Positions 26,412 through 31,644 of a stretch of 42,339 nt of DNA are shown in pieces. The DNA comes from Ignavibacteria bacterium (GTDB taxonomy: Bacteria > Bacteroidota > Ignavibacteria > Tepidaquicellales > OLB5): the NCBI GenBank assembly GCA_019912545.1, contig JAIOIK010000112.1:74038-116376 (forward strand). Direction: 5' to 3'. Position 1 is the stretch's first letter. Every line of letters begins with the position of its first letter. A program made the position numbers and the translations under genes. The notes beneath the pieces were generated by a model. It saw only the letters and a list, made by a program, of their open reading frames with translations. It was not told where the DNA came from and searched no databases.

Positions 26412-26446
26412 ATTAAACATATTTTATATAGAAAGCCAAGGATTTG

Positions 26447-27556
26447 ATGAAGGTACCGTTTGTGGATCTAAAAACACAATATTCGGGAATTAAAGAAGGA
26501 GTATTAAAAGAGATTAATGAGGTTCTTGAAAGCACAGCTTATATTTGCGGAAAGAAAGCGAAGAAGTTTGAGGAAGATTTCGCTAAAATTCATGATGTTA
26601 AGTATTCAATAGCTCTTAGCTCCGGTACAGATGCCCTCCATGTAGCAGTTCACTCTCTCGGAATTGGCCCGGGTGACGAAGTTATAGTTCCTGTAAACAC
26701 ATTTATTGCAACCGCAGAAGGTGTTTCTGCATGCGGTGCGACACCCGTTTTTGTGGATAATGATGAACAAACATATAACATTGATCCTTCAAAAATTGAT
26801 GCAGCAATTACCTCCAAGACTAAAGCAATCATACCAGTACATTTGTATGGACAGCCGGCAGAAATGGACCGGATTCTTGATATCGCAGATGATCACAATC
26901 TATATGTTATTGAAGACTGCGCGCAGGCTCACTTGGCAGAATACAAAGACCAAAAAATTGGCGGACTGGGAGATATTGGTACATTTAGTTTTTACCCGGG
27001 CAAAAATCTTGGCGCATATGGCGAGGGCGGAGCAGTCACAACAAATGATGACAGGCTTTTTGACTTCATGCTTAAATACCGCCAGCACGGTTCAACTGAA
27101 AAATATGTACATGAAATTATTGGACATAATTTCAGAATGGAAGAGATCCAGGCCGGTGTGCTTAACGTTAAATTGAAGTATATCGAAAAGTGGACCCAAA
27201 ACCGCAGAAGGATCGCAGCTTTATACTCTAAGACATTTGCTGATCTGGGAATAAGCGAAGTTATTACTCCTTATAATCCTGTTCACGTCAAGCCGGTTTA
27301 TCATTTGTATATTGTTCGTGTTCCTAAAAGAGAGGAACTGGTTAAATTTCTCAATGAGAAAGGGATCCAAACTGGGCTTCACTATCCCCTCCCGCTTCAT
27401 ATGCAGAAGGCATACTCTCACATGGGATATACTCCGGATGATTTCCCGGTCGCGAAGAAACTTGCTGGTGAAATACTTTCAATACCGATGTACCCGGAGA
27501 TGACTGGTGATATGGTAGAATATGTTTGCGACACAGTTAAAGCTTTCTACAAATAA
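26447..27556 (+). CDS. PLP-dependent sugar aminotransferase (DegT/DnrJ/EryC1/StrS family)
   Basis: This enzyme transfers an amino group from glutamate to a keto-sugar nucleotide, with PLP as cofactor. Family marks include SIALSSGTDALHVAV, GDEVIVPVNTFIAT, VIPVHLYGQ, VIEDCAQAHLA and FSFYPGKNLGAYGEGGA, in which K186 is the PLP lysine. The FYPGKNLGA form is that of WbpE, FdtB and PorR-like 3-aminotransferases rather than of PglE types, so a 3-keto substrate is favoured. ATG 26447 is chosen because AAGGA precedes it at good spacing; the TTG at 26444 is in frame. It is the first gene of the operon and abuts the next with no gap. The oxidoreductase and acyltransferase that would act before and after it are three and four genes on. 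Confidence 0.92.
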   Translation: MKVPFVDLKTQYSGIKEGVLKEINEVLESTAYICGKKAKKFEEDFAKIHDVKYSIALSSGTDALHVAVHSLGIGPGDEVIVPVNTFIATAEGVSACGATPVFVDNDEQTYNIDPSKIDAAITSKTKAIIPVHLYGQPAEMDRILDIADDHNLYVIEDCAQAHLAEYKDQKIGGLGDIGTFSFYPGKNLGAYGEGGAVTTNDDRLFDFMLKYRQHGSTEKYVHEIIGHNFRMEEIQAGVLNVKLKYIEKWTQNRRRIAALYSKTFADLGISEVITPYNPVHVKPVYHLYIVRVPKREELVKFLNEKGIQTGLHYPLPLHMQKAYSHMGYTPDDFPVAKKLAGEILSIPMYPEMTGDMVEYVCDTVKAFYK

Positions 27557-29017
27557 ATGCTGGACGAATTCATAAAAAAGTGGGGAGCAAAAAAGCTGAT
27601 CATATCAGTCAATGATATTTTCTGCACAACACTTTCATTTATCCTGGCGTTATATTTAACTGTCCCTGATATCAGCGTGTATTTTACAGAGGCCTCATAT
27701 ATCGAAAAACTCTTGATCTTTATTTTCGGTGCTTTTCTCATAATTCCTATCTTCAGATACTACCAGCTATACAAGCACAAATATTTCCTGCAGGTTGGCG
27801 AGCAGACACTCCTGATATTAAAAGGATTGTTAATAAACAGCATATTAATAATCCTCGCCATATTCTTAGTTAAAACTCAGGAAGCATTGCATGATTCAAG
27901 AACGCAAGTTATAATTTATTTTGCATCTGCATTCACTCTGCTGTTCTTATCCAGAGTATTGATCTTGAGGCGGTTCCTGCGTGCAAACTATGTTGGCGGG
28001 AATATCAAAGAGTTCCTTACAAGGCGGGTTCTTGCAATTGGCGCCGGCAATCTAGGGATGTTTTTTGCAGAATTACTGACGGTTAAGCCCCATTATCACA
28101 TAGAACTGGTTGCCTTCCTGGATGACAATCCTCTAAAGCAAGGGCTGAGCATTAATCATATCCCGGTACTTGGTACTTCAAAAGATATTGATAGAATTGT
28201 AGATGAGCAGGAAATCGATGAGATTTTTATAACGATCCAGAGTATAGAGAACAAGAACCTTCTTGATCTGATCGAAAAATGCAAATTAACTAACTGCCAT
28301 GTCAATCTTGTATCAAACCATTTTGATATAATCACAGCTAAGCTTGATGAAGGAGAGTACCATGACCTGAAGGTTATTTCGGTTTCTCCGAAAATGTCAC
28401 CCTTGTATTCTGAAAGATTCAAACGGAAGTTTGATATTGCTGCATCGGGCTTCCTGATCTTATTATTGGCTCCAGTTTGGATATCAATTGCTCTTGCTAT
28501 AAAGTTAAGTTCAAAAGGGCCGGTTTTTTATAGTACTGATGTTATAGGAAAAAACGGGAAAAAATTCAAATGGTTCAAATTCAGAACTATGATGGAAAAT
28601 AATGACTCAAGTGTTCACGAATTACACCTGGAAAAGCTCATCACGGCTAACAAAGGATATAAAAAGCTGGTAAATGACCCGAGGATAACATCAGTTGGAA
28701 GGCTTCTCAGGAAATTCAGTCTTGATGAACTGCCGCAGTTATTCAATGTATTTAAAGGGAATATGAGCCTGGTTGGCCCGCGCCCGTGTCTGCCATATGA
28801 ATACGAACATTTCAAAGACTGGCATAAGCTGAAATATAAAGTTATACCGGGCATAACAGGCCTTGCACAGATAGTAGCAAGAAACCGTGAAGATGTTACG
28901 TTCAGCGATTCTGTTTTGCTTGATCTTTATTATGCCGATAATCAGTCTCTATGGCTTGATCTTAAAATACTTTTCAAAACCATACCTGTTATGGTTTTTG
29001 GCAAGGGAGGAATTTAG
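27557..29017 (+). CDS. polyprenyl-phosphate sugar-1-phosphate transferase (WcaJ-like)
   Basis: This is an initiating transferase that moves a sugar-1-phosphate from a nucleotide sugar to undecaprenyl phosphate at the inner membrane. It has four N-terminal helices (about residues 15-138), a CoA-binding-like Rossmann domain with [19 protein letters not shown] (157-174), a membrane helix at about 295-316 and a C-terminal catalytic domain. That domain carries WFKFRTM (339-345), the catalytic-type [11 protein letters not shown] (388-398, D390-E391) and MSLVGPRP (403-410). At 486 residues it matches the long WcaJ/WbaP class. It begins on the base after the aminotransferase stop. Which sugar it transfers is unknown. 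Its UAG stop at 29015 is in frame with the following gene. Confidence 0.94.
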
Positions 29018-29020
29018 AAA

Positions 29021-30064
29021 ATCAAATCAACTCAGAAAACAATTAATGTAGGTGTTATTGGATGCGGATATTGGGGACCCAAGCTGGTCAGAAATTTCCA
29101 CAGCATTCCCGGCTGCAGGGTAAAGAAAGTAAGCGACTTGAAATCCGGCAGGCTGGATTTTATCAGGAAAGAATTCCCTGTTGTTGAAACAACAAAAGAC
29201 TACCGTGAGATATTGAAGGACAAAGGTATTAATGCAGTTGTAATTGCAACACCCGTTACAACACATCGTGAAATTGCCGAAGAAGCAATGTTTTTGGGAA
29301 AACACGTTTTTGTTGAAAAACCGCTTGCCCTCAGCATAGAAGAAGCTGAATCGATGGTGTATACATCAGGCAAGCTTGAAAAGAAACTCGCTGTTGGCCA
29401 TGTTTTCCAGTTCGCTCCGGCAGTAATGAAGATCAAAGAACTGCTGAAGAAAAAGATTATTGGCAAAGTACTGCATATTACTTCTACCAGGATCAATTTG
29501 GGGCCTCCCGAAACAGAAGTTGATGTAATCTGGGACCTGGGCCCTCATGATTATTCCATAATACTTCATTTGCTCGGAGAGTCACCATGGAAAGTTAATT
29601 CTACAAGGAATGAATATCCTTTTGGAACTTCTAACAAACCTGGATCAAAAACAAAAAACAGACTTACAAATAATGCTCATATAGATCTTAGTTTCAAAAG
29701 CGGTATAACCGCTCATATTCATCTTGGATGGCTGTCATCAAACAAAATGCGTTTGATGCAGATATTTGGAACTGAAGGAACTCTTGTGTACGATGAGATG
29801 CTCGCGCTTGATGGAAAACTGAAACTGTATGGAAAAGGCGTTGATAACAGGATCAAAAATAAAGCTTCTGATTCGGCAAGCCTGGGATATAATTCAGGCG
29901 AAATTACATTGATACAACTGGAACAGCATGAACCGCTTAGGCTTGAATGCCAGGAATTTATTAATGCCATATTGTTCGATAAACCAATTATTAACAATGG
30001 GATTATCGGGCTTGAAGTAGTTAAGCTGCTTGAGACCTCAAGCGAGTCATTTACCAAAAGCTGA
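29021..30064 (+). CDS. Gfo/Idh/MocA-family oxidoreductase with no standard start codon
   Basis: The protein is an NAD(P)-dependent sugar dehydrogenase of the WbpB/WlbA kind. The Rossmann motif is INVGVIGCGYWGPK, followed by VIATPVTTHREIAEEA, KHVFVEKPLALS (the EKP catalytic Lys motif) and VAVGHVFQF-like AVGHVFQFAPA. The Rossmann region is encoded at about 29042-29083, yet no ATG, GTG or TTG occurs in frame between the upstream UAG (29015) and TTG 29138, and that TTG would delete the motif. ATC 29021 follows GGAGG by 10 nt and is used here; ATT 29042 is another candidate. The gene is in the same frame as the preceding transferase. It presumably oxidises C3 of a UDP- or dTDP-sugar before transamination. 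Confidence 0.86.
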   Translation: MKSTQKTINVGVIGCGYWGPKLVRNFHSIPGCRVKKVSDLKSGRLDFIRKEFPVVETTKDYREILKDKGINAVVIATPVTTHREIAEEAMFLGKHVFVEKPLALSIEEAESMVYTSGKLEKKLAVGHVFQFAPAVMKIKELLKKKIIGKVLHITSTRINLGPPETEVDVIWDLGPHDYSIILHLLGESPWKVNSTRNEYPFGTSNKPGSKTKNRLTNNAHIDLSFKSGITAHIHLGWLSSNKMRLMQIFGTEGTLVYDEMLALDGKLKLYGKGVDNRIKNKASDSASLGYNSGEITLIQLEQHEPLRLECQEFINAILFDKPIINNGIIGLEVVKLLETSSESFTKS

Positions 30065-30066
30065 AA

Positions 30067-30654
30067 ATGGAAAAGAATGCGTATTTTATCCACCCAAATG
30101 CAATAGTTGAGTCTACAAGTATCGGGGCGAAAACCAGGATTTGGGCTTTTGCTCATGTACTGAAAAATGTTGAGATCGGGGAAGATTGCAATTTGTGCGA
30201 TTATGTTTTTGTTGAAAGCGGTGTGAGAATCGGTAACCGTGTCACAATAAAAAATGGCATATCTCTTTGGGAGGGACTTGAAGTTGAAGATGATGTGTTC
30301 CTTGGGCCAAACGCTGTTTTCACAAACGATATGTTCCCAAGAAGTAAAAGGCATAGTGGGAATTTTCTGAAAACCTTATTGAAAAAAGGCTGCAGCGTTG
30401 GGGCAAATGCTACTATTTTGTGCGGAATTACATTAGGAAAGTATTGTATGATTGGCGCAGGAGCAGTTGTAACCAAAAGCGTACCGGATTTTGCTCTGGT
30501 TACAGGTAATCCGGCAAGAATAATGTACTGGATATCGAAGACTGGGGAGAAACTTATATTTGATTCAGAGAAACAGGCTTCAGATTCAGACGGAAATAAA
30601 TATTTGCTGAACATTAAAGAGCAGGAAAACTTAAATTACGTAACGGAAATCTAA
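30067..30654 (+). CDS. left-handed beta-helix sugar N-acyltransferase (WbpD/WlbB-like)
   Basis: The 195-residue protein is built of hexapeptide repeats ([LIV]-G-x4), e.g. ATSIGAKTRIWAFAHV-like turns, VEIGEDCNL, VRIGNRVTIKNG and VFLGPNAVFTND. The FLGPNAVFTNDMFPRS stretch and the final IGAGAVVTKSVPDFALVTGNPARIM are diagnostic of WbpD/WlbB and FdtC-like transferases, which put an acetyl group from acetyl-CoA on a sugar amine. It lies 2 nt after the oxidoreductase stop and abuts the next gene. With the aminotransferase and oxidoreductase it forms the classical three-step set that makes a 3-acetamido sugar nucleotide. Whether the sugar is a uronic acid cannot be decided; no WbpA-like dehydrogenase is present. 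Confidence 0.9.
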   Translation: MEKNAYFIHPNAIVESTSIGAKTRIWAFAHVLKNVEIGEDCNLCDYVFVESGVRIGNRVTIKNGISLWEGLEVEDDVFLGPNAVFTNDMFPRSKRHSGNFLKTLLKKGCSVGANATILCGITLGKYCMIGAGAVVTKSVPDFALVTGNPARIMYWISKTGEKLIFDSEKQASDSDGNKYLLNIKEQENLNYVTEI

Positions 30655-31644
30655 ATGATAATTTCACAGACTCCACTTAGAATTAGTCTCGCAGGAGGCG
30701 GGACAGATCTAACGAATTATTATTCTGCACATGAAGGCTTAGTTGTAAGCACTGCTATTGATAAGTATATTTATGTGGTAATAAAAGAAAGATTTGATGA
30801 CCTTATCTATGTTGATTATTCCAAAAAAGAGATCGTAAACTCAATAGATGAAATTCAACATGACCTTGTACGGGAAGCTGCCAAAAAAACCGGATTGCAC
30901 CATGGCTTTGAGGTCATGATGCTTGCAGACATCCCTTCCGAAGGATCCGGACTTGGTTCTTCCAGCAGTTTAACTGTTGGATTGCTGCACGCATTTTACC
31001 AATTCAGAGGAATTCTTGTCACATCTGAGCAGCTGGCTAAAGAAGCATGCGAGATAGAAATAAAAATCCTAAAAAGACCCATAGGTAAGCAGGATCAGTA
31101 TATTGCAGCATACGGCGGTTTAAAGGCTTTCAGGTTCTGCAAAGATGAATCTGTAGAAGTTAAAGATATAAATATAGATAGCGAACCCAAGAGGAAGCTT
31201 GGCTCAAACCTGCTGCTTTTTTTTACAGATGTTACCCGTAAAGCTGCATCAATACTTGAAGAGCAAAGCAATAACATACTATCAAAGCTTGAATTCCACC
31301 ACAGGATAAAAGAACTTGCCTTCGATTCACTTGACGGATTAAACAGTCTTGATATAAACAGGATTGGTGATAACCTGAAAATTAACTGGGAAATGAAAAA
31401 ACAGCTGGCATCAAATGTCTCTAACCGCGAAATTGACAAAATGCACAATTTAGCTATGGATGGCGGCGCACTTGGGGCTAAAATTTCCGGTGCCGGAGGC
31501 GGTGGTTTTCTGCTGGTGTATTGTGAAAGAGACAGACAGGATAATTTGAGGAGAACTTTAAGAAAATACAGAGAACTTCCTTTTCTTCTTGAAAAATTCG
31601 GCAGCAAAATTATATTTGATCAGACCCGGTACGATATTAAGTAA
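30655..31644 (+). CDS. GHMP-family sugar kinase, heptose-7-phosphate kinase-like (HddA)
   Basis: The protein has the three GHMP kinase motifs: ISQTPLRISLAGGGTDL at the N-terminus, ADIPSEGSGLGSSSSLTVGL (phosphate-binding loop, residues 94-106) and KISGAGGGGFLLVY near the C-terminus. The PLRISLAGGGTDL and GSGLGSSSSLTV forms are those of HddA, which phosphorylates D-glycero-D-manno-heptose 7-phosphate at C1 in the GDP-heptose route. Length (329) fits. A GmhA-like isomerase three genes on supports this, but the phosphatase and nucleotidyltransferase of the route are not in the window. Related kinases for fucose or other sugars are an alternative. Confidence 0.87.
   Translation: MIISQTPLRISLAGGGTDLTNYYSAHEGLVVSTAIDKYIYVVIKERFDDLIYVDYSKKEIVNSIDEIQHDLVREAAKKTGLHHGFEVMMLADIPSEGSGLGSSSSLTVGLLHAFYQFRGILVTSEQLAKEACEIEIKILKRPIGKQDQYIAAYGGLKAFRFCKDESVEVKDINIDSEPKRKLGSNLLLFFTDVTRKAASILEEQSNNILSKLEFHHRIKELAFDSLDGLNSLDINRIGDNLKINWEMKKQLASNVSNREIDKMHNLAMDGGALGAKISGAGGGGFLLVYCERDRQDNLRRTLRKYRELPFLLEKFGSKIIFDQTRYDIK

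Follow-up and report, generated by a model that had tools for sequence, protein, structure and literature searches.

A predicted AUC start codon, conserved as AUC or AUU, for a sugar dehydrogenase gene placed directly behind a transferase stop in a family of Ignavibacteria

The DNA analyzed here is a stretch of 42,339 nucleotides (the window) from the contig JAIOIK010000112.1 of an Ignavibacteria bacterium (assembly GCA_019912545.1). It carries a gene cluster whose order is conserved among relatives: aminotransferase, polyprenyl glycosylphosphotransferase, dehydrogenase, acetyltransferase, sugar kinase, epimerase, and a GmhA-like gene. The features on which this study is centered are collected in Table 1. 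The dehydrogenase contains a Rossmann domain (PF01408, 87.2 bits) and a C-terminal domain (PF22725, 47 bits), and its translation includes GCGYWG, of the GxGxxG type, and VEKP, the EKP motif, by which it is assigned to the Gfo/Idh/MocA family. The top NCBIfam model was UDP-N-acetylglucosamine 3-dehydrogenase (NF040723) with 167.7 bits against a curated cutoff of 450; because this score is far under the cutoff, the substrate of the enzyme is unproven. Concerning the next gene, we also noticed that in one relative (G011, locus L012) the acetyltransferase apparently starts at an ATA overlapping the TGA stop of the oxidoreductase (tgATAAATAATC), while the start is ATG in relatives.

Table 1. Coordinates of the genes and sequence elements discussed (positions of the window unless a genome and contig are given).
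Feature	Position	Strand	Remarks
DegT-like aminotransferase	26444..27556	+	co-oriented, 5' gene of the conserved cluster; family name by reading of the sequence
Polyprenyl glycosylphosphotransferase (upstream gene)	27557..29017	+	ATG start, end ...FGKGGI, stop UAG; PF02397, PF13727; TIGR03025 above cutoff
Shine-Dalgarno-like GGAGG	29006..29010	+	in the stretch encoding the transferase GKGG tail; spaced 10 nt from ATC 29021
Transferase stop UAG	29015..29017	+	3 nt before AUC; in the oxidoreductase frame by chance
Proposed start codon AUC	29021..29023	+	ATC/ATT in 12/12 orthologues; conservation onset
Gfo/Idh/MocA-family sugar dehydrogenase	29021..30064	+	347 aa counted from AUC; stop TGA 30062-30064; PF01408, PF22725
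ATT, other candidate start of the earlier note	29042..29044	+	rejected, ordinary strand residue; aligned codons in relatives ATC, ATT, ATA, GTA, CTG, TTA
TTG	29138..29140	+	choice of a gene finder limited to ATG/GTG/TTG; nucleotide-binding motif lost; position not conserved in relatives
Hexapeptide acetyltransferase-like gene	30067..30654	+	ATG start
GHMP-type sugar kinase-like gene (HddA-like)	30655..31644	+	
Carboxyl transferase loci	G000 C6:47078 (L234); G009 C1:1578450		also in G002, G003, G004, G008, G010, G012

The dehydrogenase frame is open from 29018 (AAA ATC AAA TCA ACT CAG AAA ACA ATT AAT GTA GGT GTT ATT GGA TGC GGA TAT TGG GGA) to its TGA. An earlier note on this DNA had pointed out that the frame holds no ATG, GTG, or TTG between the transferase UAG and the Rossmann motif, the first one being TTG 29138 within the Rossmann domain, and that a GGAGG is spaced 10 nt from ATC 29021; both observations were confirmed in the sequence. 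Three options had been offered there, namely a rare ATC or ATT start, a fusion protein made by UAG readthrough, and a sequencing error. Results presented below support the rare start, specifically at ATC 29021, and speak against readthrough, against the error, and against ATT 29042 as the start.

Among 59 relatives searched, 11 genomes that belong to the family of the window genome and share its gene order carry a close orthologue (73-83% identity), so that the set comprises 12 genes with that of the window. None of these 12 has a canonical start in the segment that runs from the end of the transferase gene to the Rossmann motif, which includes the interval corresponding to 29018-29045, where the earlier note had considered that relatives might reveal one. 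At the aligned start codon, 7 orthologues have ATC and 5 have ATT, and none has ATA, ATG, GTG, or TTG, counts that are not independent trials because the 12 sequences share ancestry. The codon that follows is AAA, AAG, or AAT, and the first canonical codon of the relatives is found 26-89 codons downstream, at a position that is not conserved. Relatives also have a Shine-Dalgarno (SD)-like core at this place, as GGAGG, GGCGG, GGTGG, or GGGGG, with the weaker GGCGG or GGTGG in several of them; its conservation is not independent evidence, because the core also encodes the GKGG tail of the transferase.

The same comparison decides on a sequencing or assembly error concealing a normal start. The window belongs to a draft genome in 206 contigs, and a single base change would be enough to create a canonical codon; nevertheless, the chance of such an error is negligible, and we exclude it because twelve separate assemblies, including the two-contig G009 and the ten-contig G002, all lack ATG, GTG, or TTG at this codon.

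We also compared the ATC/ATT codon (AUY hereafter) with ordinary isoleucine codons. ATA accounts for 125 of the 342 isoleucine codons of the alignment (36.5%), and each of the 12 other all-isoleucine columns has ATA in at least one species, the start column being the sole one free of it. Among fourfold-degenerate columns, 1 of 64 was all-pyrimidine. The fraction of codon differences that are synonymous was 0.07 in the six same-frame codons upstream of the AUY codon (5% in an off-frame control), rising downstream to 0.29 in codons 2-7 and to 0.76 in codons 8-26. Judged from these fractions, protein-like conservation begins at the ATC 29021 codon, and we consider it very probable that translation of the dehydrogenase starts at this AUC.

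A different product would be expected if ribosomes read through the UAG or shifted frame, that is, a fusion of transferase and dehydrogenase, and in the window genome both frames are indeed in register across a single UAG. Among the orthologues, however, the offset between the two frames is 0, 1, or 2, the frames differing in 10 of the 12 (some by one base, some by two), and the stop is either TAA or TAG, with 3, 2, 2, 1, 1, 2, 2, 2, 4, 1, 3, and 2 nt between stop and AUY codon. As all three registers occur, the in-frame arrangement of the UAG in the window is accidental. In addition, the codons between the two genes are not conserved as protein (synonymous fraction 0.07), and in the search for a suppressor tRNA that the earlier note had suggested, none of the 38 tRNAs matched in the genome of the window had a CUA anticodon. 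A fusion is thus extremely improbable and, by the comparison of genomes, a readthrough or frameshift product is refuted as a general mechanism.

Initiation at another site, either ATT 29042, an in-frame TTG farther upstream, or TTG 29138, is also improbable, if somewhat less so. An in-frame TTG upstream is present in two relatives (L005 and L009), 18-21 nt before the aligned start region, but not in the remaining ones. We rejected this TTG as the start of L005 and L009, considering that it is not conserved and that it lies upstream of the SD-like core; in the window gene, such a start is impossible because the UAG intervenes in frame. The codons aligned with ATT 29042 in relatives are those of ordinary isoleucine, valine, or leucine residues (GTA, CTG, TTA, and ATA among them), and initiation at TTG 29138, which is not conserved, would delete the nucleotide-binding motif.

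The history of the AUY start was followed on a tree of 17 sequences, comprising the 12 AUY genes and the outgroups L013-L017. All AUY genes group together in a single clade (98/99 support), and the outgroups start with TTG (L013 and L015), ATG (L014 and L016), or GTG (L017); L015-L017 share the transferase-oxidoreductase order. On this tree, the third base of the start shows at least four changes between T and C, none to G or A, and the AUY state is never lost. The simplest reading is that this state arose once, inside this family, and was then kept, and the comparison shows its retention over a genus-level span. Because AUY was kept through this radiation and never became AUG, the data suggest selection for a weak start in the dehydrogenase.

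The initiator tRNA (L166) looks normal, with a CAU anticodon and the GGG/CCC anticodon stem; an altered initiator anticodon was rejected on these features. AUY would therefore be read with a mismatch at the third base, the only position at which non-Watson-Crick pairing is tolerated by IF3 (PMC10158994). No conserved RNA structure or hairpin was found at the start by RNAalifold. We propose that the dehydrogenase starts at AUC 29021, a near-cognate codon rarely used for initiation, which the ordinary initiator tRNA would read; the protein would then begin with fMet-KSTQKTINVGVIGCGYWG... Ribosomes ending the transferase at the UAG may be held by the adjacent upstream GGAGG and may re-initiate 3 nt downstream of this stop, at the AUC; alternatively, 30S subunits would initiate there afresh. 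In E. coli, ribosomes are known to re-initiate near a stop, a process that is sensitive to IF3, and less so with an SD sequence (PMC2268962). Because of the mismatch between its third base and the CAU anticodon, the AUC would initiate weakly, and IF3, which represses noncanonical starts (PMC5472188), should hold it down as it does with infC. In this way, the soluble dehydrogenase would be kept low relative to the membrane transferase. We infer the coupling to the transferase, the fMet, the IF3 sensitivity, and the ratio-setting, and the proposal that AUC 29021 sets this ratio in an IF3-sensitive manner seems to us evenly poised.

It is also possible, although we find it doubtful, that the AUY codon is a real start with no regulatory role, the tight coupling of termination and re-initiation making the identity of the codon nearly irrelevant. 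The start indeed follows the stop by only 1-4 nt and is preceded by an SD-like core, and the re-initiation known from E. coli would fit such a case. On the contrary, an irrelevant codon should drift to ATA and others or back to ATG, whereas ATC and ATT alone are found in the 12 species, and neither infC nor a carboxyl transferase described below has its AUY start 1-4 nt behind a stop.

The start of infC is ATC or ATT in 15 of 15 genomes of the family (L033-L047; L036 is at about 5.76 kb of G000 C105), as expected from infC elsewhere. We scanned 2.4 Mb of G009, a near-complete genome in two contigs (about 2,100 ORFs, some two-thirds of G009), and 0.29 Mb of G000, retaining genes in which coding potential was seen far ahead of the first canonical codon, reaching back to an SD-spaced near-cognate codon. 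The scan detected both controls, infC and the dehydrogenase, and it also picked up prfB, as expected from the known frameshift of this gene. Among the approximately 2,100 ORFs of G009, four genes were credible SD-supported AUY cases: infC, the dehydrogenase, a carboxyl transferase (PF01039), and a lipoprotein (DUF4292). With only these four, a generally relaxed usage of start codons was rejected.

A search with a fixed-spacing pattern showed that the carboxyl transferase starts with ATC in 7 genomes and with ATT in 1, out of the 8 that were readable (8/8 AUY), and this codon coincides with the coordinates where protein alignments begin. In the 3 genomes checked, AGGAGA lies a short way before this codon, which opens a conserved N-terminal extension of 20 codons ahead of the next ATG; the 19 codons lying between the two starts vary in a protein-like manner (43% of codon differences synonymous). 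For the lipoprotein, on the minus strand at L241:16706-17491 (G009 C1:1737491), the start is a single-genome prediction, in which an SD-spaced ATC opens the signal peptide and no canonical start occurs for 50 codons. Two further genes came to our attention. A metallophosphoesterase-like gene (G009 C1:206063-206705) has a stop adjoining its SDIHL motif and is probably a frame break. A prfB-like (RF2) body without a start (G000 C173:28180-29212, L228) is consistent with the usual programmed frameshift.

One may speculate that infC, the surface-sugar dehydrogenase, the carboxyl transferase, and perhaps the lipoprotein make up a translational regulon set by the level of IF3 through conserved AUY starts in this Ignavibacteria family, so that the synthesis of envelope sugars and the supply of carboxylase would respond to the state of the initiation machinery. 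We regard such a regulon as rather unlikely. Together, the dehydrogenase, infC, and the carboxyl transferase make the question of a regulon governed by IF3 open to direct test.

It is very rare for a gene to start with a codon other than AUG, GUG, or UUG. Of 61,358 ancestral AUG starts in one reconstruction, 1 had switched to AUU (PMC5622118), and E. coli reportedly has only two genes starting with AUU (PMC9410913). From the comparison of orthologues, we consider the dehydrogenase a real case of a conserved noncanonical start, of a small known kind that includes infC, pcnB, Borrelia pncA, and sigR. The gene for IF3, infC, starts with AUU in E. coli and with AUC in Streptomyces (PMC5472188). 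The dehydrogenase gene resembles it in having a conserved AUY codon with an SD sequence and no canonical start nearby; however, infC is autoregulatory, whereas the dehydrogenase is a sugar enzyme encoded 1-4 nt behind the stop of another gene. In Streptomyces, sigR starts with GTC (GTT in 2 of 34 species) and is repressed by IF3, by which the ratio to its operon partner is set (PMC5472188). Here the likeness consists of a genus-wide noncanonical start, a pyrimidine as third base, and an operon setting, while sigR has GTC instead of AUY and encodes a sigma factor rather than an enzyme, and the effect of IF3, demonstrated for sigR, is inferred for the dehydrogenase. As summarized in PMC9410913, E. 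coli pcnB has an AUU start (Binns and Masters 2002, cited therein) that limits expression, providing a case of this kind in a gene other than infC. In Borrelia burgdorferi, pncA (bbe22) starts with AUU (PMC13398362). As with the dehydrogenase, it encodes a metabolic enzyme whose functional N-terminus is truncated by canonical-only annotation, although pncA is an experimental case in a single species and the start of the dehydrogenase is predicted from a comparison of 12 species. As for pcnB, it is a different gene, and we know of no coupling of it to an upstream stop. Gene finders limited to ATG, GTG, and TTG would truncate the dehydrogenase as well, losing its nucleotide-binding motif. Compared with these systems, the new features are that such a start has persisted through a genus in a gene of metabolism, that it follows the stop of another gene by 1-4 nt, and that further AUY genes are present in the same genomes.
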